Origin: Clostridiales bacterium
GTDB taxonomy: Bacteria; Bacillota; Clostridia; Lachnospirales; Lachnospiraceae
Direction of reading: 5' to 3'
Length of the DNA stretch: 64,000 nucleotides
NCBI GenBank assembly: GCA_012519695.1
Contig: JAAYPT010000105.1
Span: forward strand, 1 to 64,000
Shown here: in pieces, positions 29,816 through 57,668 of the stretch
Position numbering within the stretch: position 1 is the stretch's first letter
How the letters are laid out: every line of letters begins with the position of its first letter
Translations under genes and position numbers: made by a program
Notes under the pieces: generated by a model
Seen by the model: the letters and a program-made list of their open reading frames with translations, nothing else
What the model was told of the DNA's origin: nothing
Databases searched by the model: none

Positions 29816-29824
29816 AATAATATT

Positions 29825-41140: not shown

Positions 41141-42025
41141 ATGAAGATATTGATAACCGGAGCTAGTGGGTTTGTAGGAAGAAACGTAAAAGAGTATTTG
41201 GAAAAAAAGAATGAGGAATACGAGATATATGCTCCGACCAGTAAGGAATTAGATTGTTTAAATGAGCAGGAAGTAACGGAATATTTAAAAAAGCACAGAT
41301 TTGAATATGTTTTACATTTTGCGGTATACGGAGACGGGATAGATAAAACCAAAGATGGCACAAAGATATTAGATTATAATCTGCGGATTTTTCTGAACTT
41401 TGCCAAGAATTCCATGTATTACGGAAAGATGTACTATACAGGCTCCGGTGCAGAATATGACAAAAGAAGTGAAATTGTAAGTGTGTCAGAGGAAGAAATA
41501 GGACAGTCCATACCGGTAGATCAATATGGATTGATGAAGTATACCATTCAACAGATAATAGAAAAAAGTGATAATATATATAATTTCCGACTGTTTGGTA
41601 TTTTCGGAAAATATGAATATTATCCGGTTAAATTTATCTCTCTTGCATGCTGCAAAGCGATTAAAGGACTTCCACTTGCTATGAGACAGAATGTGTATTT
41701 TGACTATTTATGGGTAGAGGATTTTTGCAGAATGGTAGAGCGGTTTTTATGGCAAGAACCTAAATTTCATACATATAACATGGTTTCGGGCCAAAAGATT
41801 AGTCTGGAAGAGATATGCAACATGGTATTGAAAGTAAGCGGAAAAGATTTACCGGTCTATATTTGCAAAGAGGGACTTGGAAAAGAATATACAGCATCAA
41901 ACAAAAGATTTTTAGAGGAATGTCCGGACTTTGTGTATACCCCAATGGAACAGGTAATCGAAAAATTGTATCGATGGTATATGCAGAATGAAACAATGAT
42001 TGACATATATAAATTACTTTATTAG
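41141..42025 (+). CDS. NAD-dependent epimerase/dehydratase (SDR) family protein
   Basis: A 294-aa extended-SDR protein. MKILITGASGFVGRNVKEYL gives the GxxGxxG NAD site, and YYTGSGAEYDK and the catalytic YGLMK (Y-x-x-x-K) follow near residue 130. It is shorter than 4,6-dehydratases, and the usual Thr/Glu dehydratase pair is not obvious, so a reductase or epimerase role is more likely. It lies before a PtmE-like nucleotidyltransferase and a TPP enzyme; a reductase acting on a keto-sugar from this island is plausible. Confidence 0.72.
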   Translation: MKILITGASGFVGRNVKEYLEKKNEEYEIYAPTSKELDCLNEQEVTEYLKKHRFEYVLHFAVYGDGIDKTKDGTKILDYNLRIFLNFAKNSMYYGKMYYTGSGAEYDKRSEIVSVSEEEIGQSIPVDQYGLMKYTIQQIIEKSDNIYNFRLFGIFGKYEYYPVKFISLACCKAIKGLPLAMRQNVYFDYLWVEDFCRMVERFLWQEPKFHTYNMVSGQKISLEEICNMVLKVSGKDLPVYICKEGLGKEYTASNKRFLEECPDFVYTPMEQVIEKLYRWYMQNETMIDIYKLLY

Positions 42026-42040
42026 GAAAGAGAAAAAACT

Positions 42041-43084
42041 ATGAAGCTAGAAGATATGTTATTAACAGAAAAAGAAAGCGTAAAAGACGCAATTGTACGA
42101 TTGGAAAAAGTAAGATGTAAAGTTGTCTATATCGTAAAAGGGAAAAAATTACTGGCATCGGTTTCAGATGGTGATATCAGAAGATTTTCTTTAAAATCCG
42201 GTGACATCAATGAGAGCGTTAGCTGCATTGCAAATTATGAACCCCATTCCTTCCGGGAGTACGAAAAGGATAAGTGGTTAGAAGTTTTTAAAGAAACACA
42301 GTTATATTCAGTTCCCATTACAAATCTGAATGGCGAGATTATCGGAATCGTATTCCGAAACGGAACTATCGTAAAAGAACAGAACAAAATGGATGTTCCG
42401 GTTGTAATGATGGCAGGAGGAAAAGGAACACGTCTTCATCCATATACGAAGATTCTTCCAAAGGCATTAATTCCAATTGGAGATATTCCTATCTCAGAGC
42501 ATATTGTGAATCGGTTTTATGAAAGTGGATGTACAGAGTTTTTCTTTTTGGTAAACCATAAAAAAGGAATGATACAGTCCTATTTTGATAACATTGAAAG
42601 AAAGTATGCCATTCATTATATCGAGGAAACAGAGCCCCTTGGAACAGGAGGTGGTTTAAGCCTGTTAAAAGGACAGATTCAGCAGGATTTTGTTTTAACA
42701 AATTGCGATATATTAATCGATGCAGACTATACTGCGATATATAAAATGCATGAGAAAAAAGGAAACTTTATTACGATGGTGCTTTCAGAGTATAATGCAC
42801 ATATTCCGTATGGAGTAGTGTCCATAGATGAGGAAAATAATTACGAAGGGGTAACAGAAAAGCCAACCCTTAAGTATCTGATAAACACCGGTGTATATAT
42901 TGTAAATGCACGTGTAATAGAAGAACTGGCAGATAATACAGCCATTGGATTCCCGGATATTATTGAAAAATATCGAAAAGCGGGCGAAAAGATTGGCTGT
43001 TATATCGTAAATGAATCAGCATATATGGATATGGGACAATTTGAAGAATTAGAGAAAATGAAAGAACGACTAAATGTACAATAG
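42041..43084 (+). CDS. ptmE: Sugar-1-phosphate nucleotidyltransferase with CBS domains (PtmE-like)
   Basis: A 347-aa protein. The N-terminal 115 residues form a CBS pair (VYIVKGKKLLASVSDGDIRR, YSVPITNLNGEIIGIVFRNG). From about residue 122 a nucleotidyltransferase follows: VPVVMMAGGKGTRLHPYTKI has the GGxGTRL pyrophosphorylase loop, then ALIPIGDIP and GTGGGLSLL. The CBS-plus-transferase layout is that of Campylobacter PtmE, glucosamine-1-phosphate guanylyltransferase of the GDP route to legionaminic acid. The partner Leg enzymes are encoded downstream, which supports the call. Nucleotide choice is inferred from the family. Confidence 0.75.
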   Translation: MKLEDMLLTEKESVKDAIVRLEKVRCKVVYIVKGKKLLASVSDGDIRRFSLKSGDINESVSCIANYEPHSFREYEKDKWLEVFKETQLYSVPITNLNGEIIGIVFRNGTIVKEQNKMDVPVVMMAGGKGTRLHPYTKILPKALIPIGDIPISEHIVNRFYESGCTEFFFLVNHKKGMIQSYFDNIERKYAIHYIEETEPLGTGGGLSLLKGQIQQDFVLTNCDILIDADYTAIYKMHEKKGNFITMVLSEYNAHIPYGVVSIDEENNYEGVTEKPTLKYLINTGVYIVNARVIEELADNTAIGFPDIIEKYRKAGEKIGCYIVNESAYMDMGQFEELEKMKERLNVQ

Positions 43085-43102
43085 AAGGAAAAGGACAGAA
43101 GG

Positions 43103-44887
43103 ATGAAGAAACGAGTAGCAGATATTATCATGGATACATTGATAGAATATGGGGTCACAGATTGTTTTGCAGTTGTAGGCGGTGGAGCAATGCATTTGGA
43201 TAATGCTTTGCTGGTATGCGACAAGATGAATAAATACTTTAATCATCATGAGCAGGCATGTGCTATGGCGGCGGAAGCATATGCGCGATACAGTGGAAAA
43301 ATGGCGGCTGTTTGTGTAACTTCCGGACCGGGAGCTACCAATACACTAACAGGTGTTATGGGAGCATGGCAGGATAGTCTGCCGATGATTGTTCTTTCCG
43401 GACAGGTTCGCTATGAAATTTCCGTTCCGAAGTCAGGTCTGAATCTTCGCTATAGAGGTATTCAGGAATTTGAAATCATACCAACCGTAAAAAATATGAC
43501 AAAATATGCAGCAATGCTTACCGACCCGTTAGCGGTAAAAAGAGAAGTGGTAAAAGCAATTCAAATCGCCATGGATGGAAGACGTGGACCGGTATGGCTG
43601 GACATTCCTCAGGATATTCAGAATGCAAGGGTAGAGGAAGAAGAATTGTATGCAATAGAGCCGTATCAAAGCAGTGTTCCAGAAGCGACAGGGGAAGAAG
43701 TAGAAAAGGTATTGAACATATTACAGGAAGCAGAAAGACCATGTATTCTGGCAGGTTCGGGAATCCGAAGCAGTCATTCTATGGAAGCATTTCTGAAATT
43801 TGCAGATAAAATGCAGATTCCGGTTATCGGAGGAGCATGGGTTGCAGATAATTTATATATGGAGCATCCACTTTATTTCGGACCATCCGGAAATATAGGA
43901 CCAAGAACCGGAAATTTCATTTTGCAGAATGCAGATGTAATTCTTGCTTTGGGAAACAGTCTGGGATTCCGACAGACTGGATTTAATCAGGAAGGATTTG
44001 CACCGAAAGCGAAAATCTATATGGTGGATGCAGACGCAGACGAAGCGAAGAAACCGGGAATAAAAATTGCAGGTTTCATACAGGCAGAATTGAATAAATT
44101 TTTTGAAACAACAGAAAGTCTGGAAATTTCGGTAAAAGAACATAAAGAATGGATGAATTATTGCAATAAATTAAAGATGAGATTCTCACCTTTCGAAGCA
44201 GTTGAAAAAGGAGTAGACTTGAATGAAAGAGTTTGTTCCTATTATTTTTGGAAGGTATTTCAGAAGTATGAGCCGGAGGATAGCATACTGGCGCTTGGAA
44301 ATAATACAGCAAATACAGCAAAACTTCAGGTTGGAATACAAAAGAAAGAACAGCGTGTTATTACCAATTATACATGCGGTTCTATGGGATATGATGTGCC
44401 GGCAGCGGTAGGAGTAGCGGTAGCCTCCGGGAAAAAAGTATATTGTGTCACAGGGGATGGAAGTGTTATGATGAACTTACAGGAACTTCAAACCATTGTA
44501 CAGTATAAGTTACCGATACATTTGACGGTATTTTCCAATGAAGGATACGGAGCAATCCGACAGACAAGTAAGAACTTTTTTAATGGAGCATATATTGGAT
44601 GTACACCGGATACAGGAGTGAGCTTCCCGGATTTCAAAAAAGTGGCAGAAACATTTGGATTTCGATATATTTGTTGCCATAATAACGGGGAAGTGGAAAA
44701 GTGCATTCAGGAAATGATGCAGAGTAAGGAAAGAGTGTTACTGGAGGTGTTGCAGGCATTTGATGATCCGGTTACGCCAAAAGTTATGTCAAGATTGGAT
44801 GAAAACGGAAAAATGCTGACACCTGCATTGCAGGATATGTATCCGTTTTTAGAAAAAGAAGAAATGGATAAGTTAATGTTTAATTAA
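43103..44887 (+). CDS. Thiamine-diphosphate-dependent enzyme (acetolactate-synthase-like)
   Basis: A 594-aa protein with the full three-domain ThDP fold. The catalytic Glu lies in FNHHEQACAMAAEAYARYSG (about residue 51). VCVTSGPGATNTLTGVMGAW follows. The cofactor motif GDGSVMMNLQELQTIVQYKL then HLTVFSNEGYGA is GDG-x25-N. Similar enzymes condense pyruvate with a 2-oxo acid (AHAS) or with a keto-sugar: YerE adds a two-carbon branch to CDP-4-keto-3,6-dideoxyhexose. Its place in a sugar operon that also has rfbF/rfbG/rfbH makes the latter attractive but unproven. No AHAS small subunit is nearby. Confidence 0.8.
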   Translation: MKKRVADIIMDTLIEYGVTDCFAVVGGGAMHLDNALLVCDKMNKYFNHHEQACAMAAEAYARYSGKMAAVCVTSGPGATNTLTGVMGAWQDSLPMIVLSGQVRYEISVPKSGLNLRYRGIQEFEIIPTVKNMTKYAAMLTDPLAVKREVVKAIQIAMDGRRGPVWLDIPQDIQNARVEEEELYAIEPYQSSVPEATGEEVEKVLNILQEAERPCILAGSGIRSSHSMEAFLKFADKMQIPVIGGAWVADNLYMEHPLYFGPSGNIGPRTGNFILQNADVILALGNSLGFRQTGFNQEGFAPKAKIYMVDADADEAKKPGIKIAGFIQAELNKFFETTESLEISVKEHKEWMNYCNKLKMRFSPFEAVEKGVDLNERVCSYYFWKVFQKYEPEDSILALGNNTANTAKLQVGIQKKEQRVITNYTCGSMGYDVPAAVGVAVASGKKVYCVTGDGSVMMNLQELQTIVQYKLPIHLTVFSNEGYGAIRQTSKNFFNGAYIGCTPDTGVSFPDFKKVAETFGFRYICCHNNGEVEKCIQEMMQSKERVLLEVLQAFDDPVTPKVMSRLDENGKMLTPALQDMYPFLEKEEMDKLMFN

Positions 44888-44904
44888 GGACTGGGAGAAG
44901 AAAA

Positions 44905-46038
44905 ATGATACATTTAGCAGAACCAAATTTAACAGGAAATGAGAGAAAATATTTAAATGAGTGTATAGATACCACGTTTGTATCTTCCGTTGGTGCATTT
45001 GTGAGCAAGTTTGAAGAGGAAGTGGTAAGGGTTACAGAAGCAGATTTTGGAACCGCAGTTTCTTCTGGAACCGCAGGATTACATATGGCATTGAAAGCAG
45101 TTGGAGTGGAAAAGGACGAGCTGGTATGTATTCCTTCTTTTACTTTTATTGCAACAGCGAATGCAGTAATGCATTGTGGGGCACAACCGTGGCTGATTGA
45201 TATTGCAAAGGATTCATGGACCATGGACCCTGATGTATTGGCACAGGAATTGCAGGAAAAGGCAGAGGTAAGAGACGGAAAAGTTTATCACAAGTCCAGC
45301 GGAAAAAGAATTGCAGCAATTATGCCGGTGTATACGTTGGGAATGCCGGCAGATATGGATAAGATAAAGCGTATTGCAGCAGAATATCACCTTCCGGTGG
45401 TTGCCGATGCAGCAGCGGCAATTGGTGCCAGATACAAGGGAAATAATATTGGAAAAATCGCAGATGTTACGGTATTTTCTTTTAATGGCAATAAAACCAT
45501 TACCTGTGGCGGAGGCGGCGCACTTGTTAGCGCAAATCAGCAAATCATTGAAAAGGCACATCATCTGGCAACTACTGCAAGATGCGGTATCGAATACGAG
45601 CATGATATGGTAGGATACAATTATAGAATGACAAATATTCAGGCAGCAGTGGGTTGTGCACAGTTAGAGCGTGTAGACGAATTCGTAGAAAAGAAAAAAT
45701 ACATAAGAGAGTATTACAGTAAACATTTAAGTGGAATTAAAGATATTTCTTTCTTCCCGGAAGTAGAGTGGGCAGAAAGTGCATGCTGGTTTTCCGGTTT
45801 GGTTTTGAGTGATAAGTATGAAGTGAAAAAGGTTTGCGAACTTTTGAAGGAAAAAGGAATTGAAGCAAGAACATTCTGGAAACCGGTACATCAGCAGAAA
45901 CCGTATGTGAATGAAGAACGGTCAGAAATGAAAGTTGCAGACAATCTTTGGAAACATGTATTAACATTACCAAGTTCCACAGGAATTACTGAGGAAGAAT
46001 TAGAGCAGGTTGTTAAGGCGATAAAAGAGATATTTTAG
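44905..46038 (+). CDS. legC: DegT/DnrJ/EryC1 sugar aminotransferase, LegC-like
   Basis: A 377-aa PLP enzyme. VSSVGAFVSKFEEEVVRVTE and AVSSGTAGLHMALKAVGVEK bind the cofactor phosphate, VVADAAAAIGARY holds the PLP Asp, and FSFNGNKTITCGGGGAL holds the Schiff-base Lys. The N-terminus with LAEPNLTGNERKYLNECIDT matches LegC-type transferases of the legionaminic pathway, which aminate the 4-keto sugar made by LegB. It precedes LegH-, LegI- and LegG-like genes in the usual pathway set. Confidence 0.82.
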   Translation: MIHLAEPNLTGNERKYLNECIDTTFVSSVGAFVSKFEEEVVRVTEADFGTAVSSGTAGLHMALKAVGVEKDELVCIPSFTFIATANAVMHCGAQPWLIDIAKDSWTMDPDVLAQELQEKAEVRDGKVYHKSSGKRIAAIMPVYTLGMPADMDKIKRIAAEYHLPVVADAAAAIGARYKGNNIGKIADVTVFSFNGNKTITCGGGGALVSANQQIIEKAHHLATTARCGIEYEHDMVGYNYRMTNIQAAVGCAQLERVDEFVEKKKYIREYYSKHLSGIKDISFFPEVEWAESACWFSGLVLSDKYEVKKVCELLKEKGIEARTFWKPVHQQKPYVNEERSEMKVADNLWKHVLTLPSSTGITEEELEQVVKAIKEIF

Positions 46039-46063
46039 TTGTGTGAACTTGAGATAGGAGTAT

Positions 46064-46717
46064 ATGGTGGAAGATATTATTCTATTGGGATTTGGCGGAC
46101 ATGCCAAAAGTGTCATAGATACCATTGAAAAGCAAAATAAGTATCAGATTGTTGGATTTACCGATAAAAGCCGGGACAAAGTATATAAAAAATATCAAAC
46201 AATCGGGACAGACGATGATTTGGAGAAGATTTTTCAAAAAGGAGTGAAAAATGCTTTTATAACCATTGGGTATTTGGGAGATTCCGCGATAAGAAAACAA
46301 TTATTTTATCGTCTAAAAGAAATTGGCTACCATATACCGGTGATTGTTGATGATACAGCAGTGATTGCAACAGATGCAAGAATCGGAGAAGGAACGTATG
46401 TAGGTAAAAATGCAGTCATAAACTCCGATGCCAGTGTGGGAAAAATGTGCATTGTTAATACGGGAGCTATTGTAGAACATGATTGTGTGGTAGGTGATTT
46501 TTCTCATGTTGCAGTGGGAGCGGTTGTGTGTGGTATGTCAAAAGTCGGAGCAGAGACATTAATAGGTGCAAATGCTACTGTGATACAGTGTATGGACGTT
46601 GGAAATCAATCAAAAGTCGGAGCAGGAGCGATTGTATTAAAACAGGTGCCTGACAATACAACGGTAAGTGGCGTTTGGAAAGGAAGCAAGCAGCAGAGAG
46701 GTGACGGAAGTGAATAG
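46064..46717 (+). CDS. legH: Sugar acetyltransferase of NeuD/PglD type, LegH-like
   Basis: A 217-aa protein. The N-terminal PglD-type Rossmann-like domain (LLGFGGHAKSVIDTIEKQNK, residues 7-26) is followed by a left-handed beta-helix (VIATDARIGEGTYVGKNAVI, GAIVEHDCVVGDFSHVAVGA with the catalytic His). It would N-acetylate the amine set by the LegC-like enzyme. The Shine-Dalgarno is unusually close to the ATG (about 3 nt), so a GTG at 46067 is an alternative. It overlaps the next gene by 8 bp. Confidence 0.85.
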   Translation: MVEDIILLGFGGHAKSVIDTIEKQNKYQIVGFTDKSRDKVYKKYQTIGTDDDLEKIFQKGVKNAFITIGYLGDSAIRKQLFYRLKEIGYHIPVIVDDTAVIATDARIGEGTYVGKNAVINSDASVGKMCIVNTGAIVEHDCVVGDFSHVAVGAVVCGMSKVGAETLIGANATVIQCMDVGNQSKVGAGAIVLKQVPDNTTVSGVWKGSKQQRGDGSE

Positions 46718-47708
46718 GGTATATATTATTGCAGAAGCAGGTGTAAATCACAATGGAAATATTGATATTGCAAAACAACTCATTGATGTAGCAGCGAAAG
46801 CGGGAGTAGATGCCGTTAAATTCCAAACATTTAAAACGGAGAGTCTGGTATGCAAAGATGCAAAAAAAGCAGAATATCAGACGGAAACTACAGATAAGGC
46901 AGAGTCGCAGTTTGAAATGTTAAAAAAACTAGAACTGACGCTAGATATGCATAAAGAATTAATAGAGTATTGCAAGCAAAAGAATGTTACATTTTTATCT
47001 ACTCCGTTTGATTTGGAAAGCATTGACTTGCTGGAACAATTAGGAATGGAAGTGTATAAGATTCCATCCGGAGAGATTACCAATTATCCATATTTAAAGA
47101 AAATAGGTCATACGGGTAAAAAGGTAATTATGTCCACGGGAATGAGTAGTATTGAGGAAGTAAGACAGGCAGTAAAAGTTTTAAAGGAAAATGGTAGTAA
47201 GGAAGTAGTGGTACTTCATTGCAATACCGAATATCCAACTCCGATGTCAGATGTTAATTTGAAGGCAATGCTTACCTTGAAGGAAGAATTGGGATTAGAA
47301 GTAGGATATTCTGATCATACCAAAGGAATTGAAGTTCCCATTGCAGCAACCGCTTTGGGTGCAACTGTAATAGAGAAACATTTTACGTTGGATAAAAACA
47401 TGGTAGGACCTGACCACAAAGCAAGCTTAGAGCCGGAAGAATTAAAGCAGATGGTACAGGCAATCCGAAATATCGAAAAGGCATTAGGCGATGGTAAAAA
47501 AGAACCATCCCAATCAGAGAAAAAGAATATTCAGGTGGTACGAAAAAGTATTGTTGCAAAGTGTGATATATCAGCAGGAGAAACTTTTTCAGAGGATAAT
47601 ATTACCACGAAAAGACCGGGAACAGGAATCAATCCGATGAATTGGGAAAAAGTCATCGGAAAGAAGGCAAAGAAAAATTTTAAGGTAGATGAGTTGATAG
47701 AGTTATAA
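46710..47708 (+). CDS. legI: NeuB-family nonulosonic acid synthase, LegI-like
   Basis: A 332-aa protein starting at GTG (46710), with GAGGTG 6 nt upstream inside the end of the previous gene. VYIIAEAGVNHNGNIDIAKQ (residues 4-23) is the NeuB start. VDAVKFQTFKTESLV, FLSTPFDLESIDLLEQLGME, YKIPSGEITNYPYLKKI and MSTGMSSIEEV follow. The C-terminal SAF/antifreeze-like domain includes RKSIVAKCDISAGETFSEDN and ITTKRPGTGINPM. It condenses phosphoenolpyruvate with a 6-carbon amino-sugar to make a 9-carbon nonulosonic acid. Both domains are intact. Confidence 0.92.
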   Translation: MNRVYIIAEAGVNHNGNIDIAKQLIDVAAKAGVDAVKFQTFKTESLVCKDAKKAEYQTETTDKAESQFEMLKKLELTLDMHKELIEYCKQKNVTFLSTPFDLESIDLLEQLGMEVYKIPSGEITNYPYLKKIGHTGKKVIMSTGMSSIEEVRQAVKVLKENGSKEVVVLHCNTEYPTPMSDVNLKAMLTLKEELGLEVGYSDHTKGIEVPIAATALGATVIEKHFTLDKNMVGPDHKASLEPEELKQMVQAIRNIEKALGDGKKEPSQSEKKNIQVVRKSIVAKCDISAGETFSEDNITTKRPGTGINPMNWEKVIGKKAKKNFKVDELIEL

Positions 47709-47724
47709 ATGGAGGAAAAATAAA

Positions 47725-48740
47725 GTGAATGCAAAATTTTCTAATATAGTAAATCAGAACAGACATGAGTTACAGGAAGTGTTACCTTTAGAAACCCCAT
47801 ATTCTATGTTTGTTGATGTTTGTAATGCTTGTAATTTTAAATGTAAATTTTGTGCAATTCAATATGCAGATAGAAAGTTGCCATTTAAAAAAATGTGTAT
47901 GGAATACGATCTTTTCAAAAAAGTGATAAATGATATAAAAGCATTTCCATCTCCGTTGAAGATGCTAAGATTAGCGGCAAATGGAGAGCCATTGATGAAT
48001 AAGAGATTACCAGAAATGATAAAGTATGCAAAGGATGCAGGCGTTGCAGACCATATAGAGATTGTTACGAATGCAAGTTTATTATCTCCGGAATTAAATA
48101 GGAAGTTGGTGGAAGCTGGCTTAGACAGAATTCGTATTTCTATTGAAGAAATTGATGCAGAAGGTTATTATCGAATGTCTGGAGTTAAAATTGATTGGGA
48201 AAAATTTGTTGACAATATTCGTAATTTTTATGAAAATCGTGGACAATGTGAAGTATATATTAAGACGGTAGATGCAGCAGTAGAAAGTGATGAAAAGAAA
48301 GAAAAATTTCTTTCTACATTTGGAAATATTTGTGACAGTATTAATATTGAACATGTTATTCCGATATGGGCTGGATATAGTGAAATTAATGATGACTTTT
48401 CTATAGAAAATGTAGAGGGATTACATGGTCATGCTATACAAGGTGTAGATGTATGTCCATTTCCATTTTATAGCTGTGTAATAAATCCTGATGGTGAGAT
48501 TACTATTTGTTGTAATGATTGGGAAAGAAAAAAAGTATGGGAAATGTAAAAACAGAGAGCATATATGATGTGTGGAATGGACCAAAGTATTATTATTTTT
48601 TAACAGAAATGCTGAAAAATGGTAGGAAAAAGAGTTGTCCAGAAGTATGTGCTAAATGTGAATATCCTTGTTACGATGCAGTAGACCATTTAGATCCTTA
48701 TCGTGAAGAGGTTTTAAAAAAATTTATAGACAGGAATTGA
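47725..48740 (+). CDS. Radical SAM/SPASM-domain enzyme, split by a -1 frameshift
   Basis: The first frame starts at GTG (47725, GGAGG 9 nt upstream) and runs 274 residues. CNACNFKCKFC holds the CxxxCxxC 4Fe-4S site of radical SAM enzymes (residues 31-41). It ends soon after CVINPDGEITICCNDWERKK, the start of a SPASM domain. The rest of SPASM, MGNVKTESIYDVWNGPKYYY then CPEVCAKCEYPCYD, lies in the -1 frame to 48740. Slipping back one base on the A7 run at 48528-48534 restores a continuous protein of about 338 aa. Loss of one A, a programmed -1 shift, or a sequence error are all possible. It sits between legI and legG, so it may tailor the nonulosonic acid precursor. Confidence 0.78.
48528..48534 (+). 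promoter_or_regulatory. Slippery heptamer A AAA AAA in the radical SAM gene
   Basis: In the zero frame the codons are AGA AAA AAA GTA, so the run reads A AAA AAA, a known -1 frameshift heptamer type. After a -1 slip the ribosome reads AGT ATG GGA and continues the SPASM domain. The zero frame stops five codons after the run. No strong downstream stem was found by eye. Confidence 0.45.
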
Positions 48741-48744
48741 TAGA

Positions 48745-49911
48745 ATGGGGAAAAAAATATGTGTAGTAACGGGAACAAGAGCAGAATATGGATTATTAAA
48801 ACCAATTATTGAAAAAGTACATCAATCGGAAGAATTGACATTACAATTGGTGGTGACGGGAATGCATCTTTCACCGGAATTTGGTTTGACATATAAGGAA
48901 ATCGAAAAGGATGGTTATCCCATTTGTACCAAGATAGAAATGCTTTTAAGTTCTGATACCACAGTAGGTATAACAAAGTCTATGGGAGTTGCATTGATGG
49001 GATTTGCGGACTGTTTTGAACAGCAAAGACCGGATATACTTATAGTATTGGGAGACAGGTATGAAATATTCATGGCGGTTTCGGCTGCGATGATAGCCAG
49101 AATACCCATTGCGCACATTCATGGGGGCGAATTGACAGAAGGACTTATTGATGAGGCAATCAGACATTCTATAACCAAAATGAGCCAGTTGCATTTTACA
49201 ACAACAGAGGAATATCGGAATCGGGTAATACAGTTAGGCGAGCAGCCTTCAAGAGTTTATAATGTGGGAGCACTAGGTGTCGAAAATATTAAAAATATAA
49301 AACTGTTAGAGAAAGCAGAACTGGAAAAACGGTTAGAATTTACATTTTCGGATAAGACCATTCTGGTTACTTACCACCCGGTTACATTAGAAAATGCCAC
49401 ATCAAAAGAGCAGTTTGAAAATGTGCTAAATGTTTTGGAGAAACATAAGGAATTAAAAATTATTTTTACAAAAAGTAATTCGGATACGGACGGAAGAATT
49501 ATTAATCAGATGATAGATGAGTTTGCGAAGGTGAATCCGGAACGGTGCGTAGTATTTACCTCTATGGGACAGTTACGTTACTTAAGTGCTTTGCAATTTT
49601 GTACAGCAGTAATGGGAAACTCCTCAAGTGGTATTATTGAAGTTCCTTCTTTTGGGATTCCGACGATTAATATCGGAGAGCGGCAAAGGGGAAGAGTTTG
49701 TGCCGAGACAGTCATAAATTGTGGAAATGGTACAGAAGAAATTGAAGAGGCATTGCAACAGGCATTGTCCGTAGAGTTTAGGAATGCTATTCGTTATTGT
49801 AAAAATCCTTATGAGGGAGAAAATACCTCAGAGAAGATAATAGAAATTGTAAAACATAGTCTGAATCAGGGAATAGAGGTTAAGAAAAAGTTTTATGATA
49901 TGGGAGAATAG
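48745..49911 (+). CDS. legG: Hydrolysing sugar-nucleotide 2-epimerase (NeuC/LegG-like)
   Basis: A 388-aa GT-B-fold epimerase. KKICVVTGTRAEYGLLKPII (residues 3-22) is the NeuC/LegG start. VLGDRYEIFMAVSAAMIARI, IAHIHGGELTEGLIDEAIRH and MGNSSSGIIEVPSFGIPTIN carry active-site and nucleotide contacts. It releases the nucleotide and inverts C2 to give the 6-carbon substrate for the NeuB-like synthase. The GDP- versus UDP-form is inferred from the PtmE-like gene. Confidence 0.88.
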   Translation: MGKKICVVTGTRAEYGLLKPIIEKVHQSEELTLQLVVTGMHLSPEFGLTYKEIEKDGYPICTKIEMLLSSDTTVGITKSMGVALMGFADCFEQQRPDILIVLGDRYEIFMAVSAAMIARIPIAHIHGGELTEGLIDEAIRHSITKMSQLHFTTTEEYRNRVIQLGEQPSRVYNVGALGVENIKNIKLLEKAELEKRLEFTFSDKTILVTYHPVTLENATSKEQFENVLNVLEKHKELKIIFTKSNSDTDGRIINQMIDEFAKVNPERCVVFTSMGQLRYLSALQFCTAVMGNSSSGIIEVPSFGIPTINIGERQRGRVCAETVINCGNGTEEIEEALQQALSVEFRNAIRYCKNPYEGENTSEKIIEIVKHSLNQGIEVKKKFYDMGE

Positions 49912-49913
49912 GT

Positions 49914-50798
49914 ATGAGAATTGTATTTGTTGGTTGTGTAAAGTCATCAGAAATCTTTTTAAAAAAGTTAATTGATACAAGAGCAGATATTGTGGGGGTA
50001 ATAGCCAAAAAAGAGTCAAAGTTTAATTCAGATTTTGTTGATATGGGCTTCATTTGTGAAGCAAATAATATTGATTATTTGTATGTAAAAAATATCAATG
50101 ATGCAGAGACGAAAGATTATATAAAAAAGAAAGAACCGGATATGATTTTGTGCTTGGGCTGGTCACAACTTTTGGATGAGGAAGTATTAAACATACCGAA
50201 AATAGGTAGTATCGGATTTCATCCGGCAGCCCTGCCAAATAATCGCGGAAGACATCCGTTAATATGGGCATTGGCATTAGGATTGCAAAGTACGGCATCT
50301 ACACTGTTTTTAATGGATGCGAAAGCGGATACAGGAGTAATTGTTTCACAAAAACCGGTCATTATTGACTATGAAGACGATGCATCTACGTTATATGATA
50401 AAGTTATGAAAGTTGCAGCAAATCAGTTAGAAGAAGTACTGGATGCTTTTGAACATGGTACGGTGCATCTGATTCCACAGGATTTGTCTAAAGGAAATTC
50501 CTGGAGAAAAAGAGGAAAGTGTGACGGTCAGATTGATTGGAGAATGTCAAGCAGAAGTATTTATAATTTAGTTAGGGCATTGACCAAGCCATATGTGGGA
50601 GCGCATTTCGTATACGGTGATAAGGAATATAAAGTTTGGAAGGTAAGAGAAATTGTTACTAAAGAGTACGAGAATATTGAGCCGGGTAAAGTTATTTCCG
50701 TAAAGAGTAAAAATAATTTTACAGTTAAGGCAGGAGAAAATGTAATAGAAGTTTTGACGTGCGATGATATAGAGCTAAATGAAGGAGAATATTTATGA
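49914..50798 (+). CDS. Sugar N-formyltransferase (FMT-like fold)
   Basis: A 294-aa protein. IGFHPAALPNNRGRHPLIWA near residue 102 holds the catalytic His and the R-G-R-H-P segment of sugar formyltransferases; FLMDAKADTGVIV near residue 140 holds the catalytic Asp. The Asn that usually precedes the His (N-x-H) is Gly here, which as far as I recall is normal for this subgroup. A C-terminal FMT_C-like part follows (YNLVRALTKPYVGAHFVYGD). The family uses N10-formyltetrahydrofolate to N-formylate amino-sugars. Its neighbour is a deacetylase, so the pair could exchange acetyl for formyl. Confidence 0.8.
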   Translation: MRIVFVGCVKSSEIFLKKLIDTRADIVGVIAKKESKFNSDFVDMGFICEANNIDYLYVKNINDAETKDYIKKKEPDMILCLGWSQLLDEEVLNIPKIGSIGFHPAALPNNRGRHPLIWALALGLQSTASTLFLMDAKADTGVIVSQKPVIIDYEDDASTLYDKVMKVAANQLEEVLDAFEHGTVHLIPQDLSKGNSWRKRGKCDGQIDWRMSSRSIYNLVRALTKPYVGAHFVYGDKEYKVWKVREIVTKEYENIEPGKVISVKSKNNFTVKAGENVIEVLTCDDIELNEGEYL

Positions 50799-51454
50799 AT
50801 GTATTAGTGGTATCCCCACATCCGGATGATGAGACATTAGGTGCAGGTGGAACAATTTTAAGGTTAAAAGAAGAGGGAAACAAGATATTCTGGCTTAATA
50901 TTACAGGAATGACAAAAGGTGGAATATTTTCCGAAGAAATGCAGGAGAGACGCAAGGAACAGTTAAAAAAAATAGAAGATTTCTATAAATTTGAAGGGAC
51001 ATACAACCTGAATTTGCCGACTGCTCAACTGGATAGTTATAATACTTCAGATGCAATAGATAAAATCAGAGAAGTATTTACAAAGGTGCAACCGGAAATG
51101 TTAATTTTACCGGATTACAACGATGCACATTCAGATCATAAGAAAGTTTTTGAATGGTGCTATTCCTGTTCTAAGGTTTTCAGATTTCCATATATTAAGA
51201 AAATTATGACAATGGAAATTGTATCAGAAACAGATTTTGGAAAGCCGGAAAATCCGTTTATTCCAAATTTTTATGTAGATATTACGGAGTATCTGGAAAA
51301 GAAAATTAATGCTTTAAATATTTATGATACAGAACTGGGAGAGCCACCATTTCCAAGAAGTATTGAACATGTAAAGGCATTGGCAACCGTGCGTGGTGCA
51401 GCAGCGGGTGTAAAATATGCAGAGACATTCAGAATGATTAAGTATATCATGTAA
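50795..51454 (+). CDS. PIG-L family deacetylase
   Basis: A 219-aa protein of normal length. VVSPHPDDETLGAGGTILRL (residues 5-24) is the PHPDD zinc and base motif, and LPDYNDAHSDHKKVFEW near residue 105 supplies the H-x-D-H zinc ligand. These enzymes remove N-acetyl groups from GlcNAc-type sugars. It overlaps the formyltransferase gene by ATGA, which implies that they act on the same sugar. Confidence 0.88.
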   Translation: MNVLVVSPHPDDETLGAGGTILRLKEEGNKIFWLNITGMTKGGIFSEEMQERRKEQLKKIEDFYKFEGTYNLNLPTAQLDSYNTSDAIDKIREVFTKVQPEMLILPDYNDAHSDHKKVFEWCYSCSKVFRFPYIKKIMTMEIVSETDFGKPENPFIPNFYVDITEYLEKKINALNIYDTELGEPPFPRSIEHVKALATVRGAAAGVKYAETFRMIKYIM

Positions 51455-51469
51455 AGTGAGGGAAATAGG

Positions 51470-52450
51470 ATGAAAAAAGTTTTAGTTACAGGTGCAGATG
51501 GATTTATCGGAAGTCATCTTACAGAAAGTTTATTAGAAAAAGGATATGATGTAAAGGCATTTACTATGTATAATTCCTTTAATACATGGGGATGGTTGGA
51601 TACATTACCAAAGGAAAAATTAGACCAGATAGAAATTTTTAGTGGAGATGTAAGAGACCCGAATGGAGTAAGAGAAGCAATGAAAGGAGTAGATGGAGTA
51701 TTTCATCTTGCAGCTTTGATTGCAATTCCATTTAGTTATCATTCTCCGGATTCTTATGTAGATACCAATATTAAAGGAACCCTAAATGTATTGCAGGCAG
51801 CACGGGAGCTGGAAACAGAAAGAATTATGGTTACATCAACCTCGGAAGTATATGGTACAGCACAGTATGTTCCCATTGATGAAAAACATCCATTTCAGGG
51901 ACAATCTCCATATTCTGCAACAAAGATTGGTGCAGATAGATTAGCAGAAAGTTTTTATCGTAGCTTTAATCTTCCGGTATCAATTGTCAGACCGTTTAAT
52001 ACATATGGTCCAAGACAATCTGCCAGAGCGGTTATTCCTACCATTATAACCCAGTTATTAGCAGGAAAAAGTGAAATTCAGTTAGGTTCTTTAACACCAA
52101 CCAGAGATTTCAATTTTGTAAAAGATACGGCGGCAGGATTTATTGCCATTGCAGAATCAGATAAGACAATCGGAGAAGAGATTAATATCGCAACACAGCA
52201 GGAAATTTCTATTGGAGATTTAGCACAGGAAATTATTCGACAAATCAATCCAAGCGCAAAGATTATTTGTGATGAGCAACGTTTAAGACCGGAAAAAAGC
52301 GAGGTTAATCGTTTGCTTGGTGCCAATGAGAAAATAAAGAGATTAACAAACTGGACACCAAAGTATACCTTTGAAGAAGGTATCAAAGAGACTATAGCAT
52401 GGCTTCGCGAGAATTTAGATAAGTATAAGACAGATATATATAACGTATAG
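51470..52450 (+). CDS. legB: Sugar-nucleotide 4,6-dehydratase, LegB-like
   Basis: A 326-aa extended SDR. KKVLVTGADGFIGSHLTESL gives GxxGxxG; TSTSEVYGTA supplies Thr and Glu of the dehydratase triad and YSATK is Y-x-x-x-K near residue 146; FNTYGPRQSARAVIPTIITQ and LTPTRDFNFVKDTAAGF are typical of the family. Similar to Campylobacter Cj1319/LegB, the GDP-GlcNAc 4,6-dehydratase that opens the legionaminic pathway. It is placed after the later-step enzymes. Confidence 0.82.
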   Translation: MKKVLVTGADGFIGSHLTESLLEKGYDVKAFTMYNSFNTWGWLDTLPKEKLDQIEIFSGDVRDPNGVREAMKGVDGVFHLAALIAIPFSYHSPDSYVDTNIKGTLNVLQAARELETERIMVTSTSEVYGTAQYVPIDEKHPFQGQSPYSATKIGADRLAESFYRSFNLPVSIVRPFNTYGPRQSARAVIPTIITQLLAGKSEIQLGSLTPTRDFNFVKDTAAGFIAIAESDKTIGEEINIATQQEISIGDLAQEIIRQINPSAKIICDEQRLRPEKSEVNRLLGANEKIKRLTNWTPKYTFEEGIKETIAWLRENLDKYKTDIYNV

Positions 52451-52474: not shown

Positions 52475-53170
52475 ATGATATTAACATTGACAAAGAACGA
52501 ATTGAGAAATTATTTAGGAAAACAATTAGAAAACTTTTTTCCGGATGGATTGACCGAGAAATATTATAAGGGAAGAGATATTGACCTTGCCTTAGATTTG
52601 GCATTGCAACGGACAGAAAATTGTTTTAAACATATTAATAATGCGGCATACAGTGATGAAAAGGGACAGACCTATTTTTCACATTTGCACTCGGATCAGT
52701 ATTCTCAGTTCTTATACTTTTTTATGAATAGCCTGTGGCAGGAGTCAGAAAATAAAAATATTTGTGATAAAATTATTTTATTGAACAGAACGCTAAACAG
52801 TATATTTGTATCATATAAGTGTGCACTACCGGACATTTTTTTCTTTGGACATCCGGTAGGTACTATATTAGGAAATGCTAAATATTCGGATTATTTATAT
52901 GTATCTCAGAATGTAACCGTGAATACTGGAAAAAATGAGAAAAAAAGTTTAACACCTGAGTTGGGAAAAGGGTTGTATTTAGCAGCAGGAGCCAAGATTA
53001 TAGGCGAAGAGAGAGTCGGCGATAGAGTGGCAATCGGTGTGGATGCGGTTGTATATAAGCAAGAAATAGGCGATGATAAACTGGTAATTCGAGATGAGAC
53101 AGGCAATATTGTAATAAAAGAAAATAAAAAATGTATACAACAATCTTTATTTAGAACAACCATAAAGTGA
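52475..53170 (+). CDS. Hexapeptide acetyltransferase, serine-acetyltransferase-like
   Basis: A 231-aa protein. A helical N-terminal half (FFPDGLTEKYYKGRDIDLAL, HLHSDQYSQFLYFFMNSLWQ) precedes a short left-handed beta-helix (DIFFFGHPVGTILGNAKYSD, LYLAAGAKIIGEERVGDRVA, IGVDAVVY). The layout resembles CysE-type and Cj1321-like transferases found beside legionaminic genes. Acetylation of a sugar or of an amino-acid side group is likely. AAGGAAG lies about 10 nt before the ATG. Confidence 0.7.
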   Translation: MILTLTKNELRNYLGKQLENFFPDGLTEKYYKGRDIDLALDLALQRTENCFKHINNAAYSDEKGQTYFSHLHSDQYSQFLYFFMNSLWQESENKNICDKIILLNRTLNSIFVSYKCALPDIFFFGHPVGTILGNAKYSDYLYVSQNVTVNTGKNEKKSLTPELGKGLYLAAGAKIIGEERVGDRVAIGVDAVVYKQEIGDDKLVIRDETGNIVIKENKKCIQQSLFRTTIK

Positions 53171-53195: not shown

Positions 53196-55556
53196 ATGAA
53201 TACACAAATAGAAGAATATTATCAGGTGTTGAATAACATTGAAAAGTCTTTGCCGGAAATGGCAATAGAAACAGCAGAAGCGTTACTGGAAGAGACCTTT
53301 CAGATAAAGCCGGTAAGGTTAAAGTGGTATTTGGTAAAAGCACAAGTTATGCTGAAAAAGGGCACTCCGGTAGAAGAGATTATCGAGTTTTTATCAGATA
53401 AATGTGCACCGTGGTATGATTATGATAATGTAAACGAGTATTTTGAACTGTTAAGTGAATTGTCAAAATACAAAGGAGATATTTTAGAGAGCGAGCGGTA
53501 TCGTTATAAAGAAAATAAAATGAACCTCTATTTTCATGGAGGCGAAGATAAAAACCATGCCATGGATGCAGAGCGCAAGAAACTTGTTTTAGAAATGGAA
53601 AAACAGAAGGAGTGGCAGCAGGAACAAATAGAACGATTAAGAGACTTATATTATATAAGTGGAAATATTTATTTGTATTTGTTGTGGCAAACAGTGATAA
53701 ATCGTCTGTTTGATGCAGAAGCACTGGTACATGAATGGATATTGAAGAAATTCAATGTGGGTTATTACTATGAAAGATTGCTTAATGATATAGAAGAAAC
53801 TTTTGTAGTTATGGCTTCCAATGAAGCAGAGGAAAAAGAGTGTCAGTTGATTGCAAGAGCGTTAAAAAGCTTGAAAAAACAGGCAATTGTCTTTTCTGCC
53901 CCTGTTTTATGGGAAGAAAACGAAGATATAAAGGATGCAGTATTAAAAAGTGTAGAATCCATAGCACAAAAAGAAGATTATATGACGGCAACCGTTTACT
54001 ATCTTGAAACCCCAGAAGGTAGAAGAGATAGTAAGAAGGAATTGTTAGAATATGTAGAACGTTCTTACAGTCCAAGCGGGGTAGTTATGATATTGGGAAG
54101 CGGTATTCTCTTAGATCAGACTGCAATGGACAATCGTATGAAACCGAAATTCGAGCGTTTAACGGACGTGGAAGCCGATTATATGGAAGAGAATATGGCG
54201 GTAGCAAGGTATGGAGATTATCTTGCGTATATTTCCAATATTTATCTAACATCAAAGGAAGAAGTAAAGAAAGATTTATATAAAAAACCTACTTGTTGTT
54301 TTTCCATTATTATTCCTTGCAGAAATGCAGGAAACACCTTATATTACACCTTAAAAACCTGCTTGAATCAAAGTTTTCAAGGAGAATACGAGATTGTTAT
54401 AAGCGACAATTCAGACAGAGCATGGGGAGCAGATACACCTACCTATCAGATTTGTCAAAAATTAAATGATAGCAGAATTAAATATTATCGGGCACCCAGG
54501 GATCTTTCTTTAATGAAGAACTTTGAATATGCGTATTTGAAGGCAGAAGGAGAGTTTTTGCTTTCTATGGGAGCAGATGACGGTATATTACCATGGGCAT
54601 TAGAGGAATTGGACAGCATTATTACAGAATATCCGCAAAGACCTGTCTGGTTATGGCATGAGGCATTTTATAAGTGGGCAGAAGTAAATAATAATATTAT
54701 GGCTGGTTCGGGAAAAGCTATCTTAAATGTGGAAAATGCATATGAAAAAGGAAGTCCAAATATATTCCAATATGCTACGCAAGGTATATTTCAGAAAGCA
54801 TTTACGCAATATGCATATATGTATTATTTGCCGCAGATATATCATAATTCGGGAATACGAAGAGAATATTTAGCAACGTTATATGAAAAGACAGGCGTAT
54901 TGTGGGCAGGTATTTCTCAGGATATGTGTATGGCAGTGACAGTTGCAAATGTGGAGCAGGAATTAGGATTTATAGACAATCTTCTTACCATTACCGGAAT
55001 CAGCAATGCATCTATCGGTGCTAATTGTCGAAGTGGAACGATAGATTTAGAACAGGAAACGATGGAAAAGAAAATGCAGAAAACATTTTCGCAGGGATGG
55101 CATGTACAGGGATATATGGAGCGACTATTTCCGATTATAGGAACAGAATTTGCAGGATTATATGCTTGTATTATGTATGCATTTGCCATTGGCGCAATTC
55201 CGGAACAAGTACTGGAAGAAGCAGATGCCAAAGTAATGTATGAAAAAATCATAAGAGAAAATGATAAGAAAAATATTTTATTTGATTCCATCCTGCATCG
55301 AATTCGCTATGCAGTATCTCTTCAGGGCGAGGAGCTTTTGGAATGGTTCGATAATAATTTTTATTATCAGTGCTTAATACCGGAGAGTGTAAAGAAGGAG
55401 GATATGAACCAGTCAAAAGAGGAATATAACGAGAGCATCGTTATAAACAATCAAATGATTGGAGCAGAAAAAGGCAGTATTAAAGATGTATATGAAGTAT
55501 CATTATTTTTAGAGAAATTTTTTGCAAAAGAAAATAGAAATGGAGAAAGCGTATGA
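53196..55556 (+). CDS. Large GT2-domain glycosyltransferase with helical N-terminal region
   Basis: A 786-aa protein. Residues 1-115 form a TPR-like helical head (VLNNIEKSLPEMAIETAEAL, VKAQVMLKKGTPVEEIIEFL). Residues about 115-360 are of unknown fold. A GT2 domain begins near 367 (FSIIIPCRNAGNTLYYTLKT, YEIVISDNSDRAWGADT, LLSMGADDGILPWALEELDS). The tail (about 600-786) is helical. It is translationally coupled to rfbF by ATGA. The acceptor is probably flagellin or a growing glycan. Confidence 0.75.
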   Translation: MNTQIEEYYQVLNNIEKSLPEMAIETAEALLEETFQIKPVRLKWYLVKAQVMLKKGTPVEEIIEFLSDKCAPWYDYDNVNEYFELLSELSKYKGDILESERYRYKENKMNLYFHGGEDKNHAMDAERKKLVLEMEKQKEWQQEQIERLRDLYYISGNIYLYLLWQTVINRLFDAEALVHEWILKKFNVGYYYERLLNDIEETFVVMASNEAEEKECQLIARALKSLKKQAIVFSAPVLWEENEDIKDAVLKSVESIAQKEDYMTATVYYLETPEGRRDSKKELLEYVERSYSPSGVVMILGSGILLDQTAMDNRMKPKFERLTDVEADYMEENMAVARYGDYLAYISNIYLTSKEEVKKDLYKKPTCCFSIIIPCRNAGNTLYYTLKTCLNQSFQGEYEIVISDNSDRAWGADTPTYQICQKLNDSRIKYYRAPRDLSLMKNFEYAYLKAEGEFLLSMGADDGILPWALEELDSIITEYPQRPVWLWHEAFYKWAEVNNNIMAGSGKAILNVENAYEKGSPNIFQYATQGIFQKAFTQYAYMYYLPQIYHNSGIRREYLATLYEKTGVLWAGISQDMCMAVTVANVEQELGFIDNLLTITGISNASIGANCRSGTIDLEQETMEKKMQKTFSQGWHVQGYMERLFPIIGTEFAGLYACIMYAFAIGAIPEQVLEEADAKVMYEKIIRENDKKNILFDSILHRIRYAVSLQGEELLEWFDNNFYYQCLIPESVKKEDMNQSKEEYNESIVINNQMIGAEKGSIKDVYEVSLFLEKFFAKENRNGESV

Positions 55557-56326
55557 AGGTAGTAATTTTAGCTGGGGGGCTGGGAACCAGAATATCAGAA
55601 GAAAGTCATTTGAAACCAAAGCCAATGATTGAAATAGGAGAAAAGCCTATTTTATGGCATATTATGAAGGAATACTCTCATTATGGGTTTAATGAATTTA
55701 TTATCTGTTGCGGATATAAGCAGCACATAATAAAGCAGTGGTTTTCTGATTACTATTTGTATAACAGTGATGTGACATTTGACTTTTCAGAACATAATAA
55801 AATGATTGTACATAATACGGAAACCGAAAATTGGAAAGTCACCGTTGTAGACACAGGATTGAATACCTTAACCGCAGGAAGAATTAAGCGAATTCAAAAG
55901 TACATAGGAAATGAAACCTTTATGATGACATACGGTGACGGGGTTTGTTCCGTTGATATTAATGATTTGGTACAGTACCATAAAAAGAGCGGAAAAGCTG
56001 CAACATTGACGGCTGCATTAGTAGAGCAGAGATTCGGTGTTTTAAGCATTGATGAAGACAATACAATTACAAGTTTCCGTGAAAAATCAAAAGAAGATGC
56101 AACAAGGGTAAATGCTGGCTACATGGTACTAGAGCCGGAAGTGTTTGATTATATTCCGGAAGAAGATGTTTATTTTGAGCAGGAACCATTAAAAAATCTT
56201 GCAAAAGACAGAAAGCTTGGAGCTTATAAGTTTAACGGATTTTGGCAACCAATGGATACAATGCGTGATAAAGAAAAATTAGAAGAATTATGGGCGAGTG
56301 GACAAGCACCATGGAAAGTGTGGTAA
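55553..56326 (+). CDS. rfbF: Glucose-1-phosphate cytidylyltransferase
   Basis: A 257-aa protein of exact family length. MKVVILAGGLGTRISEESHL is the G-G-x-G-T-R loop with the RfbF-specific S-E-E-x-x-x-x-P-K continuation. WHIMKEYSHYGFNEFIICCG and YGDGVCSVDINDL (metal Asp) follow. It makes CDP-glucose from CTP and glucose-1-phosphate, the first step of CDP-deoxyhexose synthesis. rfbH and rfbG follow directly. Confidence 0.95.
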   Translation: MKVVILAGGLGTRISEESHLKPKPMIEIGEKPILWHIMKEYSHYGFNEFIICCGYKQHIIKQWFSDYYLYNSDVTFDFSEHNKMIVHNTETENWKVTVVDTGLNTLTAGRIKRIQKYIGNETFMMTYGDGVCSVDINDLVQYHKKSGKAATLTAALVEQRFGVLSIDEDNTITSFREKSKEDATRVNAGYMVLEPEVFDYIPEEDVYFEQEPLKNLAKDRKLGAYKFNGFWQPMDTMRDKEKLEELWASGQAPWKVW

Positions 56327-56328
56327 AG

Positions 56329-57666
56329 ATGTTTGAAGGAATGAATGAATCAGAGGCAAGACAGAAAATATTATCGGAAGTAGCAGAGTATTGTCGTATT
56401 TATCATAAGAAAAAAGAGTATAAAAAGGGCGATAGAATATCCTATGCCGGAAGAGTATATGACGAGGAAGAAATGGTAAACCTTGTGGACAGTTCTTTGG
56501 AATTTTGGCTTACAGCAGGTCATTATACAGAGCAATTTGAAAAAGAGATGGCAGAGTATTTAGGAATAAGATATTGTGCCGTTGTAAACTCTGGTTCTTC
56601 TGCAAATCTTGTGGCATTTATGACGTTAACTTCTCCACTATTGGGCGAAAGACGAGTAAAGCCGGGAGATGAAGTTATTACAGTTGCAGCAGGATTTCCA
56701 ACAACGGTAACTCCCATACTTCAGTATGGAGCAGTACCGGTATTTGTAGATGTTACCATTCCACAGTACAATATCAATGTAGAGCAGTTAGAAAATGCAC
56801 TTTCCGATAAAACCAGGGCAGTGATGATTGCCCATACATTAGGAAACCCATTTGATTTGAAAACAGTAAAGGCATTTTGTGACAAACATAATTTGTGGTT
56901 AATAGAAGATAACTGTGATGCATTAGGAAGTGTATATGAGATAGACGGAGTGCAAAAATTTACCGGAACAATTGGAGATATCGGAACTTCCAGTTTTTAC
57001 CCACCACATCATATGACAATGGGAGAAGGCGGTGCGGTCTATACAGATCATCCCCTATTAAATAAAATTATCCGTTCTATGCGTGACTGGGGAAGAGATT
57101 GTATTTGTTCTTCCGGAAGAGACAATATGTGTGGACACCGATTTGATAAGCAATATGGAGAATTGCCGTTAGGTTATGATCACAAATATGTATATTCTCA
57201 CTTTGGATATAATTTGAAAGCGACCGATATGCAGGCGGCAATCGGATGTGCACAGTTAAAGAAGTTTCCATCTTTTGTAGAGGCAAGAAGAAAGAATTTT
57301 GCGCATTTATCTCAAAGATTGCAGTGTGTTAGTGAAAAATTGATTTTACCGGAGGCGTGTCCGAACTCAAATCCAAGTTGGTTTGGATTTATGATTACAT
57401 GCAAGGAAGGCATTGATAAAAACAAAGTCGTTACATACTTAGAAGAACATGGGGTACAGACCAGAATGCTCTTTGCGGGAAATTTAACAAAGCAGCCATG
57501 CTTTGATGAAATGCGTAAGAGCGGAGAAGGATATCGTATAGTAGGAAGTTTGGAAGTGACAGACAGAATTATGCGAGATACATTCTGGATTGGAGTATAT
57601 CCGGGAATGAATACAGAAATGTTGGATTACATGGCAGATACAATAATAGAAGCAGTGGAGAAATAG
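56329..57666 (+). CDS. rfbH: CDP-4-keto-6-deoxyglucose-3-dehydratase (E1)
   Basis: A 445-aa protein; the start is set at the ATG at 56329 just after rfbF, but 56313 and 56341 are also possible because no site is decisive. SSANLVAFMTLTSPLLGERR and GDEVITVAAGFPTTVTPILQ are RfbH-specific. SSFYPPHHMTMGEGGA has His in place of the PLP Lys, the hallmark of E1. DWGRDCICSSGRDNMCGHRF holds the 2Fe-2S cluster Cys residues. It works with a flavin/iron-sulfur reductase (E3, RfbI/DdhD) to remove the C3 oxygen. No E3 gene is in the window. Confidence 0.94.
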   Translation: MFEGMNESEARQKILSEVAEYCRIYHKKKEYKKGDRISYAGRVYDEEEMVNLVDSSLEFWLTAGHYTEQFEKEMAEYLGIRYCAVVNSGSSANLVAFMTLTSPLLGERRVKPGDEVITVAAGFPTTVTPILQYGAVPVFVDVTIPQYNINVEQLENALSDKTRAVMIAHTLGNPFDLKTVKAFCDKHNLWLIEDNCDALGSVYEIDGVQKFTGTIGDIGTSSFYPPHHMTMGEGGAVYTDHPLLNKIIRSMRDWGRDCICSSGRDNMCGHRFDKQYGELPLGYDHKYVYSHFGYNLKATDMQAAIGCAQLKKFPSFVEARRKNFAHLSQRLQCVSEKLILPEACPNSNPSWFGFMITCKEGIDKNKVVTYLEEHGVQTRMLFAGNLTKQPCFDEMRKSGEGYRIVGSLEVTDRIMRDTFWIGVYPGMNTEMLDYMADTIIEAVEK

Positions 57667-57668
57667 AT

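Follow-up and report, generated by a model that had tools for sequence, protein, structure and literature searches.

The window analyzed here, a stretch of 64,000 nucleotides from contig JAAYPT010000105.1 (assembly GCA_012519695.1) of a Clostridiales bacterium of the Lachnospiraceae, carries a legionaminic acid-type gene cluster at 42041-52450. Two additional genes stand between legG and legB of this cluster, one for a formyltransferase-fold protein (FT, 49914-50798, plus strand) and one for an N-deacetylase of the PIG-L/LmbE family (50795-51454, plus strand). The FT-PIG-L pair is a recurring two-gene unit in similar clusters of many unrelated bacteria, and it is an optional unit added to the standard leg cluster, because the other LegB stretches of the family hold no such pair. 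Judging from sequence comparison, and with a probability that we put at about 0.6, the pair would exchange the acetyl group on the nitrogen derived from N-acetylglucosamine (GlcNAc) for a formyl group, so that an otherwise standard leg gene set would yield 5-N-formyl-7-N-acetyl-legionaminic acid. The original prediction had noted an ATGA overlap of the two genes, and this is what we find: the ATG of PIG-L lies at 50795, and the stop codon of FT ends at 50798. Both assignments are well above the model cut-offs (FT, Formyl_trans_N PF00551, 73.1 bits versus 26.1, and Formyl_trans_C PF02911, 64.9 versus 21.1; PIG-L, PF02585, 81.0 versus 28.2).

A search of 397 genomes of the family and 60 relatives for FT orthologues (E <= 1e-60) found them in four of the 397, the window's own genome included, and in one of the 60 relatives (G023, of the same genus). 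All five FT genomes have PIG-L directly after FT or overlapping it, and legG adjoins the pair. When the alignment of the five FTs was scanned against named genomes, 214 relatives were obtained, and the analysis proceeded with the best 80; a scan of the named genomes with one FT sequence alone gave no match. The 80 loci thus selected represent the closest relatives of FT, are no random sample, and are silent on distant FTs. Neighboring genes were named by the best blastp match at 1e-8 to the window proteins (for LegF and PIG-L, also to their relatives), and weak matches (22-35%) are thereby counted as LegB, PtmE, LegC, or LegH. PIG-L lies directly 3' of FT on the same strand in 77 of these best 80 loci, and legG adjoins the pair in 57. 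Anywhere in the loci, matches to PIG-L (79), LegI (65), LegG (61), and LegH (50) are observed. With weak matches counted, at least one leg-type gene (LegB, C, H, I, G, F, or PtmE) occurs in 77 of the 80 loci, and 25, short contigs being kept, match all eight of LegB, LegC, LegH, LegI, LegG, PIG-L, LegF, and PtmE. With the start nearest to the FT stop taken for PIG-L, 44 of 75 measured pairs show the ATGA overlap.

The record titles of the FT loci include Lachnospiraceae, Paenibacillus, Brevibacillus, Flavobacterium, Chitinophaga, Sulfurimonas, Ectothiorhodospira, Verrucomicrobiaceae, Omnitrophota, and Prochlorococcus. The cultured carriers among these loci include Clostridium punense (L038), Roseburia faecis (L106), and Brevibacillus gelatini (L100). 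Plasmids provide further examples, with FT found at 1e-40 in three records, from Halorussus, Palleronia, and Parabacteroides. The plasmid of the haloarchaeon Halorussus has neuC, PIG-L, and neuB side by side and two formyltransferase genes close by. On the Palleronia plasmid, FT adjoins an ATP-grasp gene, and no neuB or neuC is annotated. The Haladaptatus and Azospirillum stretches, two of the 16 plasmid records with LegG, have no FT or PIG-L annotated in a gene table that is incomplete.

Within the family, LegB is found at E <= 1e-100 in 37 of the 397 genomes (36 of them above the curated cut-off), and FT is present in three of the 37. The overlap of FT and LegB among the 397 genomes has P 0.003, an optimistic value, because the window's own genome is counted and was selected for holding all these genes; of the three other FT genomes, two have LegB. 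The pair is in none of 35 LegB stretches (5.3-19.9 kb) from other family genomes, nor is it in G156; three of the 35 stretches contain a weak PIG-L match (23-28%), and two contain an FT match of 29%. In G302 and G415, the pair and a legG lie on a different contig from LegB. In three LegB loci without FT (L157, L161, and L163), weak PIG-L homologues (23-28%) stand beside legI-like genes and perhaps serve another acyl exchange.

Some of the FT loci contain two legG genes. The order legG, legG, FT, PIG-L is seen in L070 and L103, as if the last three genes had arrived together. The tandem legG genes before the pair span 7613-9998 in L070 and 7612-10004 in L103, and on the LegG tree the first copies belong to a clade of their own. 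In L034 (8832-12732), the pair is flanked by two legG genes that group together on the LegG tree, probably a local duplication.

The structural models of the two proteins have predicted local distance difference test (pLDDT) scores of 95.6 for FT and 95.0 for PIG-L. The best folds for PIG-L include diacetylchitobiose deacetylase, BC1534, and BshB, and its solved relatives include diacetylchitobiose deacetylase, BshB, and MshB, three enzymes that remove acetyl from 2-acetamido-glucosyl residues. With diacetylchitobiose deacetylase and BshB (21-24% identity), the window protein has in common both the fold and the HPDDE and HxDH metal-site motifs of the PIG-L/LmbE family. Both motifs are present in 33 of 33 rows of alignment A4, rows that were picked partly by the first motif, and in 62 of 83 unpicked hits under a strict pattern that misses variants and cut sequences. 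No other PIG-L was found in the window's genome. FT has the N- and C-domain fold of ArnA/Fmt-type formyltransferases; its best match is the formyltransferase domain of ArnA (2bln; Z 33.8, 1.8 Å over 284 residues, 27% identity), an enzyme whose substrate is UDP-4-amino-4-deoxy-L-arabinose (UDP-Ara4N). PDB entry 6ci2, which we take to be PseJ, the formyltransferase of the pseudaminic pathway, is also among the solved relatives of FT (32-33 bits). By its fold, FT is related to the formyltransferases, and it probably acts as one.

From these genes we infer the substrates, the position, and the order of steps as follows. Because the pathway starts from GlcNAc, an acetyl group must be removed. PIG-L would remove it from the GlcNAc-derived nitrogen (at C2 in the hexose and C5 in the nonulosonic acid); FT would then formylate the freed amine with 10-formyl-tetrahydrofolate as the donor. 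The C7 nitrogen would be acetylated by LegH and would require no exchange, and the product would be 5-N-formyl-7-N-acetyl-legionaminic acid. Since a LegH match is kept in 50 of the 80 loci, the C4 amine (later N7) has an acetyltransferase of its own. A second, different formyltransferase, 24-30% identical to FT, occurs in six of the 80 loci (L049, L070, L073, L086, L103, and L113). In L070, L086, and L103, it stands before legI in stretches that have no LegH match and that also contain the normal FT-PIG-L pair. The canonical Asn is present in four of seven sequences of the second enzyme, those readable by the motif pattern. We infer that this enzyme would formylate a fresh amine without a deacetylase, leaving the GlcNAc-derived nitrogen to FT and PIG-L.

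A different assignment of the nitrogens is that FT formylates the 4-amine made by LegC, which becomes N7, in the manner of PseJ in the pseudaminic pathway, and that PIG-L frees N5 for another acyl group or leaves it bare. In keeping with it, PseJ is among the relatives of FT, and the legionaminic acid of Clostridium botulinum flagellin has another acyl group at N5. However, LegH is matched in the window as well as in the 50 loci, a different formyltransferase occupies the place of LegH in the three loci described above, and the natural product reported is the 5-N-formyl compound (PMC6137143), all of which makes formylation at N7 rather unlikely.

The exchange at N5 would thus lead to a product that is already known. 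5-N-formyl-legionaminic acid has been reported in Halorubrum sp. PV6, with a formyltransferase gene beside legG (PMC6137143), and the statement of the original prediction that such a variant is not described is wrong for the product. The Halorubrum pathway shares with the window cluster LegB, LegC, LegG, LegI, a LegH-type enzyme, and the position of the formyltransferase gene; it differs in that it serves an archaeal N-glycan, includes LegF, and has no deacetylase named in the available part of the source (PMC6137143), where the terms "deacetyl" and "PIG-L" do not occur. Formyltransferase genes in flagellin glycosylation islands are already published (PMC5109656, PMC4875605), as are uncharacterised deacetylase genes in the pseudaminic islands of Aeromonas (PMC7874193), according to the available parts of these papers. 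No description of a deacetylase-formyltransferase exchange in a nonulosonic pathway was recognised among the open-licence PMC papers that the literature searches listed. The product is known, and it is for the deacetylase step and its spread that these searches brought up no report.

The step at which the exchange takes place may be indicated by the co-variation of the proteins. Distances between proteins were correlated for the 47 loci with all four of FT, PIG-L, LegG, and LegI, uncorrected for ancestry. The correlation is 0.62 for FT and PIG-L, 0.61 for PIG-L and LegG, and 0.47 for FT and LegG, and that of LegI with any of the three is 0.24-0.29. Loci with FT cluster on the LegG tree (10 changes versus a shuffled mean of 18.8, with none of 500 shuffles as low) and slightly on the LegF tree (13 versus 16.3; 30 of 500), but not on the LegI tree (16 versus 15.6). 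The trees are quick ones, and 16 of the 53 inner branches of the LegG tree are drawn open. The exchange most likely occurs close to the LegG step, with either the substrate or the product of LegG as its target. We also considered that FT has specialised LegG into one clade and rejected this scenario: the 10 changes mean that the FT-linked LegGs are interspersed, and therefore the pair was gained or lost repeatedly. A bolder and doubtful extension is that FT, PIG-L, and LegG form a widespread three-gene acyl-exchange unit at the LegG step, acting on the nucleoside diphosphate (NDP)-sugar or on free 2,4-diamino-trideoxy-mannose, with an FT clade in which Asn was replaced by Gly.

Several observations weigh against an acetyl-to-formyl exchange at N5 near the LegG step. 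The second formyltransferase is not a regular substitute for LegH, as three of the six loci that have it (L049, L073, and L113) keep a LegH match. The link to LegG is not unique, because loci with FT cluster on the LegB tree as well (11 changes versus 16.5 in shuffled data; two of 500 as low), and neighbors travelling together or joint transfer may explain it. Three of the 80 loci have no adjacent PIG-L: it lies on the opposite strand in L083 and 4.5 kb upstream in L102, and L108 has none in the 10 kb read downstream. FT and PIG-L stand without any leg-type gene in L037 (3.8 kb), L053 (6.6 kb), and L058 (20.9 kb), the last of them a full-length locus.

L058 also bears on the idea that FT and PIG-L act on another amino sugar of the glycan. 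The window does contain genes for another sugar, the CDP-glucose genes rfbF, rfbH, and rfbG (55553-58742, named from their sequences) and a YerE-like enzyme. We nevertheless hold this idea to be unlikely, given the leg-type genes in 77 of the 80 loci and the co-variation of FT and PIG-L with LegG; 3,6-dideoxy CDP-sugars are also not known to carry an N-acetyl group.

A further point concerns the FT active site. ArnA/Fmt-type formyltransferases have a catalytic Asn-His-Asp triad, and FT has Gly101 at the place of the Asn, which is seen in ArnA in the alignment. Gly101, His103, and Asp139 are invariant in 32 rows of alignment A3, and Gly101 is at least 97% conserved in 82 aligned rows; a direct pattern read 64 of 81 sequences, all with Gly. 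Such a stable change in a whole clade would suit a protein that is no longer a formyltransferase, one that uses another donor or only hydrolyses, the added N-acyl group not being formyl. Retention of His103, Asp139, and the entire ArnA-type fold including the C domain argues the other way, as does the same Gly-x-His in the formyltransferase of the nonulosonic acid cluster of Halorussus, and we consider loss of the activity improbable.

The last point against the exchange is specific for this strain. LegF, the CMP-legionaminate synthetase, was not found in the region; PF02348 (CTP_transf_3) has no matches in the draft assembly of the window's genome (3.16 Mb, 111 contigs), and neither does a 97-aa piece of LegF from a relative. 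Among 24 genomes, its own and 23 selected FT-locus genomes, PF02348 is present in 22 and fails in this one and in G451. LegF is missing from the draft, and therefore the pathway is incomplete in this assembly; without LegF, the sugar may never be activated in this strain. A second possible sign of decay is the gene that follows legI. The original prediction placed a radical SAM enzyme there, and the gene is in this position, but not as one intact frame. The N-terminal part (47725-48549, plus strand; PF04055, 62.1 bits) and the SPASM C-terminal part (48519-48740, plus strand, in another frame; PF13186, 33.4 bits, profile positions 28-67 of 67) overlap at 48519-48549, with the frame break at a run of seven A (48528-48534), a break that may reflect decay, phase switching, or an error in sequencing. 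By comparison, each of the 18 other homologues (E <= 1e-35), which come from 17 family genomes, has a single open frame of 330-377 aa. A decaying pathway, in which the product of the pair never reaches flagellin, would account for both defects. We give it little credence in view of the draft state of the assembly, the open frames of the other leg genes, and the homopolymer run, which invites sequencing errors.

A role of the radical SAM protein in the exchange was rejected. Homologues are present in only six of the 80 FT loci, and of the 18 family genomes that have one at E <= 1e-35, FT occurs in two, the window's own and G415. The further radical modification of the sugar that had been proposed is therefore unsupported, the gene itself being broken. 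The acetyl-to-formyl exchange proposed together with it stands as the best reading, on the adjacency and ATGA coupling of the genes, the co-variation with legG, and the report of 5-N-formyl-legionaminic acid elsewhere; the idea is probably right, more general than was seen at first, and less new in its product.

The genes of the cluster are, all on the plus strand, in the order ptmE-like, thiamine pyrophosphate (TPP) enzyme, legC, legH, legI, radical SAM, legG, FT, PIG-L, and legB, and the PtmE-, LegC-, LegH-, LegI-, LegG-, and LegB-like genes anticipated earlier are all confirmed by family models. LegC (44905-46038; TIGR04181, 443.6 bits, cut-off 420) is an aminotransferase, LegH (46064-46717; TIGR03570, 200.3 bits, cut-off 160.8) a NeuD/PglD-like N-acetyltransferase, LegI (46668-47708; TIGR03569, 526.1 bits, cut-off 399.65) a NeuB-like synthase, LegG (48745-49911; TIGR03568, 492.6 bits, cut-off 235.9) a NeuC-like hydrolysing 2-epimerase, and LegB (51470-52450; TIGR04180, 525.6 bits, cut-off 475) an NDP-GlcNAc 4,6-dehydratase. 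These five enzymes of a legionaminic acid pathway are all present above the cut-offs, the NeuB, NeuC, and NeuD models being unable to tell legionaminic from neuraminic enzymes. The TIGR03569 match starts at residue 18 of LegI, whose true start is probably slightly downstream of 46668. The ptmE-like gene (42041-43084) encodes a sugar-1-phosphate nucleotidyltransferase (PF00483, 110.3 bits) with a CBS match of 21.6 bits, under the cut-off of 24; among its nearest solved chains (70-72 bits) are uridylyltransferases as well as mannose-1-phosphate guanylyltransferases. The GDP route remains putative, as this label derives only from the homology of the PtmE-like CBS-nucleotidyltransferase and of LegB. 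A 231-aa protein without a Pfam match is encoded at 52475-53170, and a 47% homologue of it lies directly 3' of PIG-L in L103.

A GDP-linked CMP-legionaminic acid pathway was reportedly described by Schoenhofen in 2009 in Campylobacter jejuni (cited in PMC6137143). It has in common with the window cluster homologues of PtmE, LegB, LegC, LegH, LegG, and LegI, whereas the cluster adds FT and PIG-L, and LegF was not found in the window's assembly. PseJ resembles FT by the role proposed, as the formyltransferase of another nonulosonic pathway, the pseudaminic one, and is distant from it (33 bits). It replaces an acetyltransferase and is not known to need a deacetylase; in contrast, the window cluster keeps LegH and couples a deacetylase. 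The cluster is downstream of two flagellin genes (27977-29629 and 29789-30637, named from sequence) and of flagellar genes, is surrounded by glycosyltransferases, and looks like a flagellin glycosylation island.

A C-branched 3,6-dideoxy sugar may be a further component of the same glycan, as the TPP enzyme, a short-chain dehydrogenase/reductase, and the genes rfbF, rfbH, and rfbG suggest. The TPP enzyme (43103-44887), situated between ptmE and legC and absent from the original prediction, has three TPP Pfam domains and resembles JanthE and YerE, enzymes of the branched-sugar type. Its best solved chain is 8rph (327.6 bits over residues 2-592; the next has 238.1 bits), which is JanthE (PMC12188165), and YerE attaches a branch of two carbons to CDP-3,6-dideoxy-4-keto-glucose (PMC12247030), according to the parts of these papers available. 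The short-chain dehydrogenase/reductase gene (41141-42025 in the window) accompanies the TPP gene in G302, G153, G156 (twice), G384, G212, L070, L103, and L096 and does not accompany it in G122. The TPP enzyme was not linked to the formyl exchange.

In summary, the deacetylase step would offer an answer to a question left open in print, namely how 5-N-formyl-legionaminic acid is made from a GlcNAc-based pathway. The spread of the pair predicts that N-formylated legionaminic acids are much commoner in bacteria than the archaeal example suggests. If the three-gene unit is real and the free hexose is its substrate, FT would formylate a free sugar instead of a nucleotide sugar. Formyl in place of acetyl removes one CH2 (14 Da) and is easily misread in spectra of flagellin glycopeptides, and FT-PIG-L as a marker pair would let glycan chemists choose strains.

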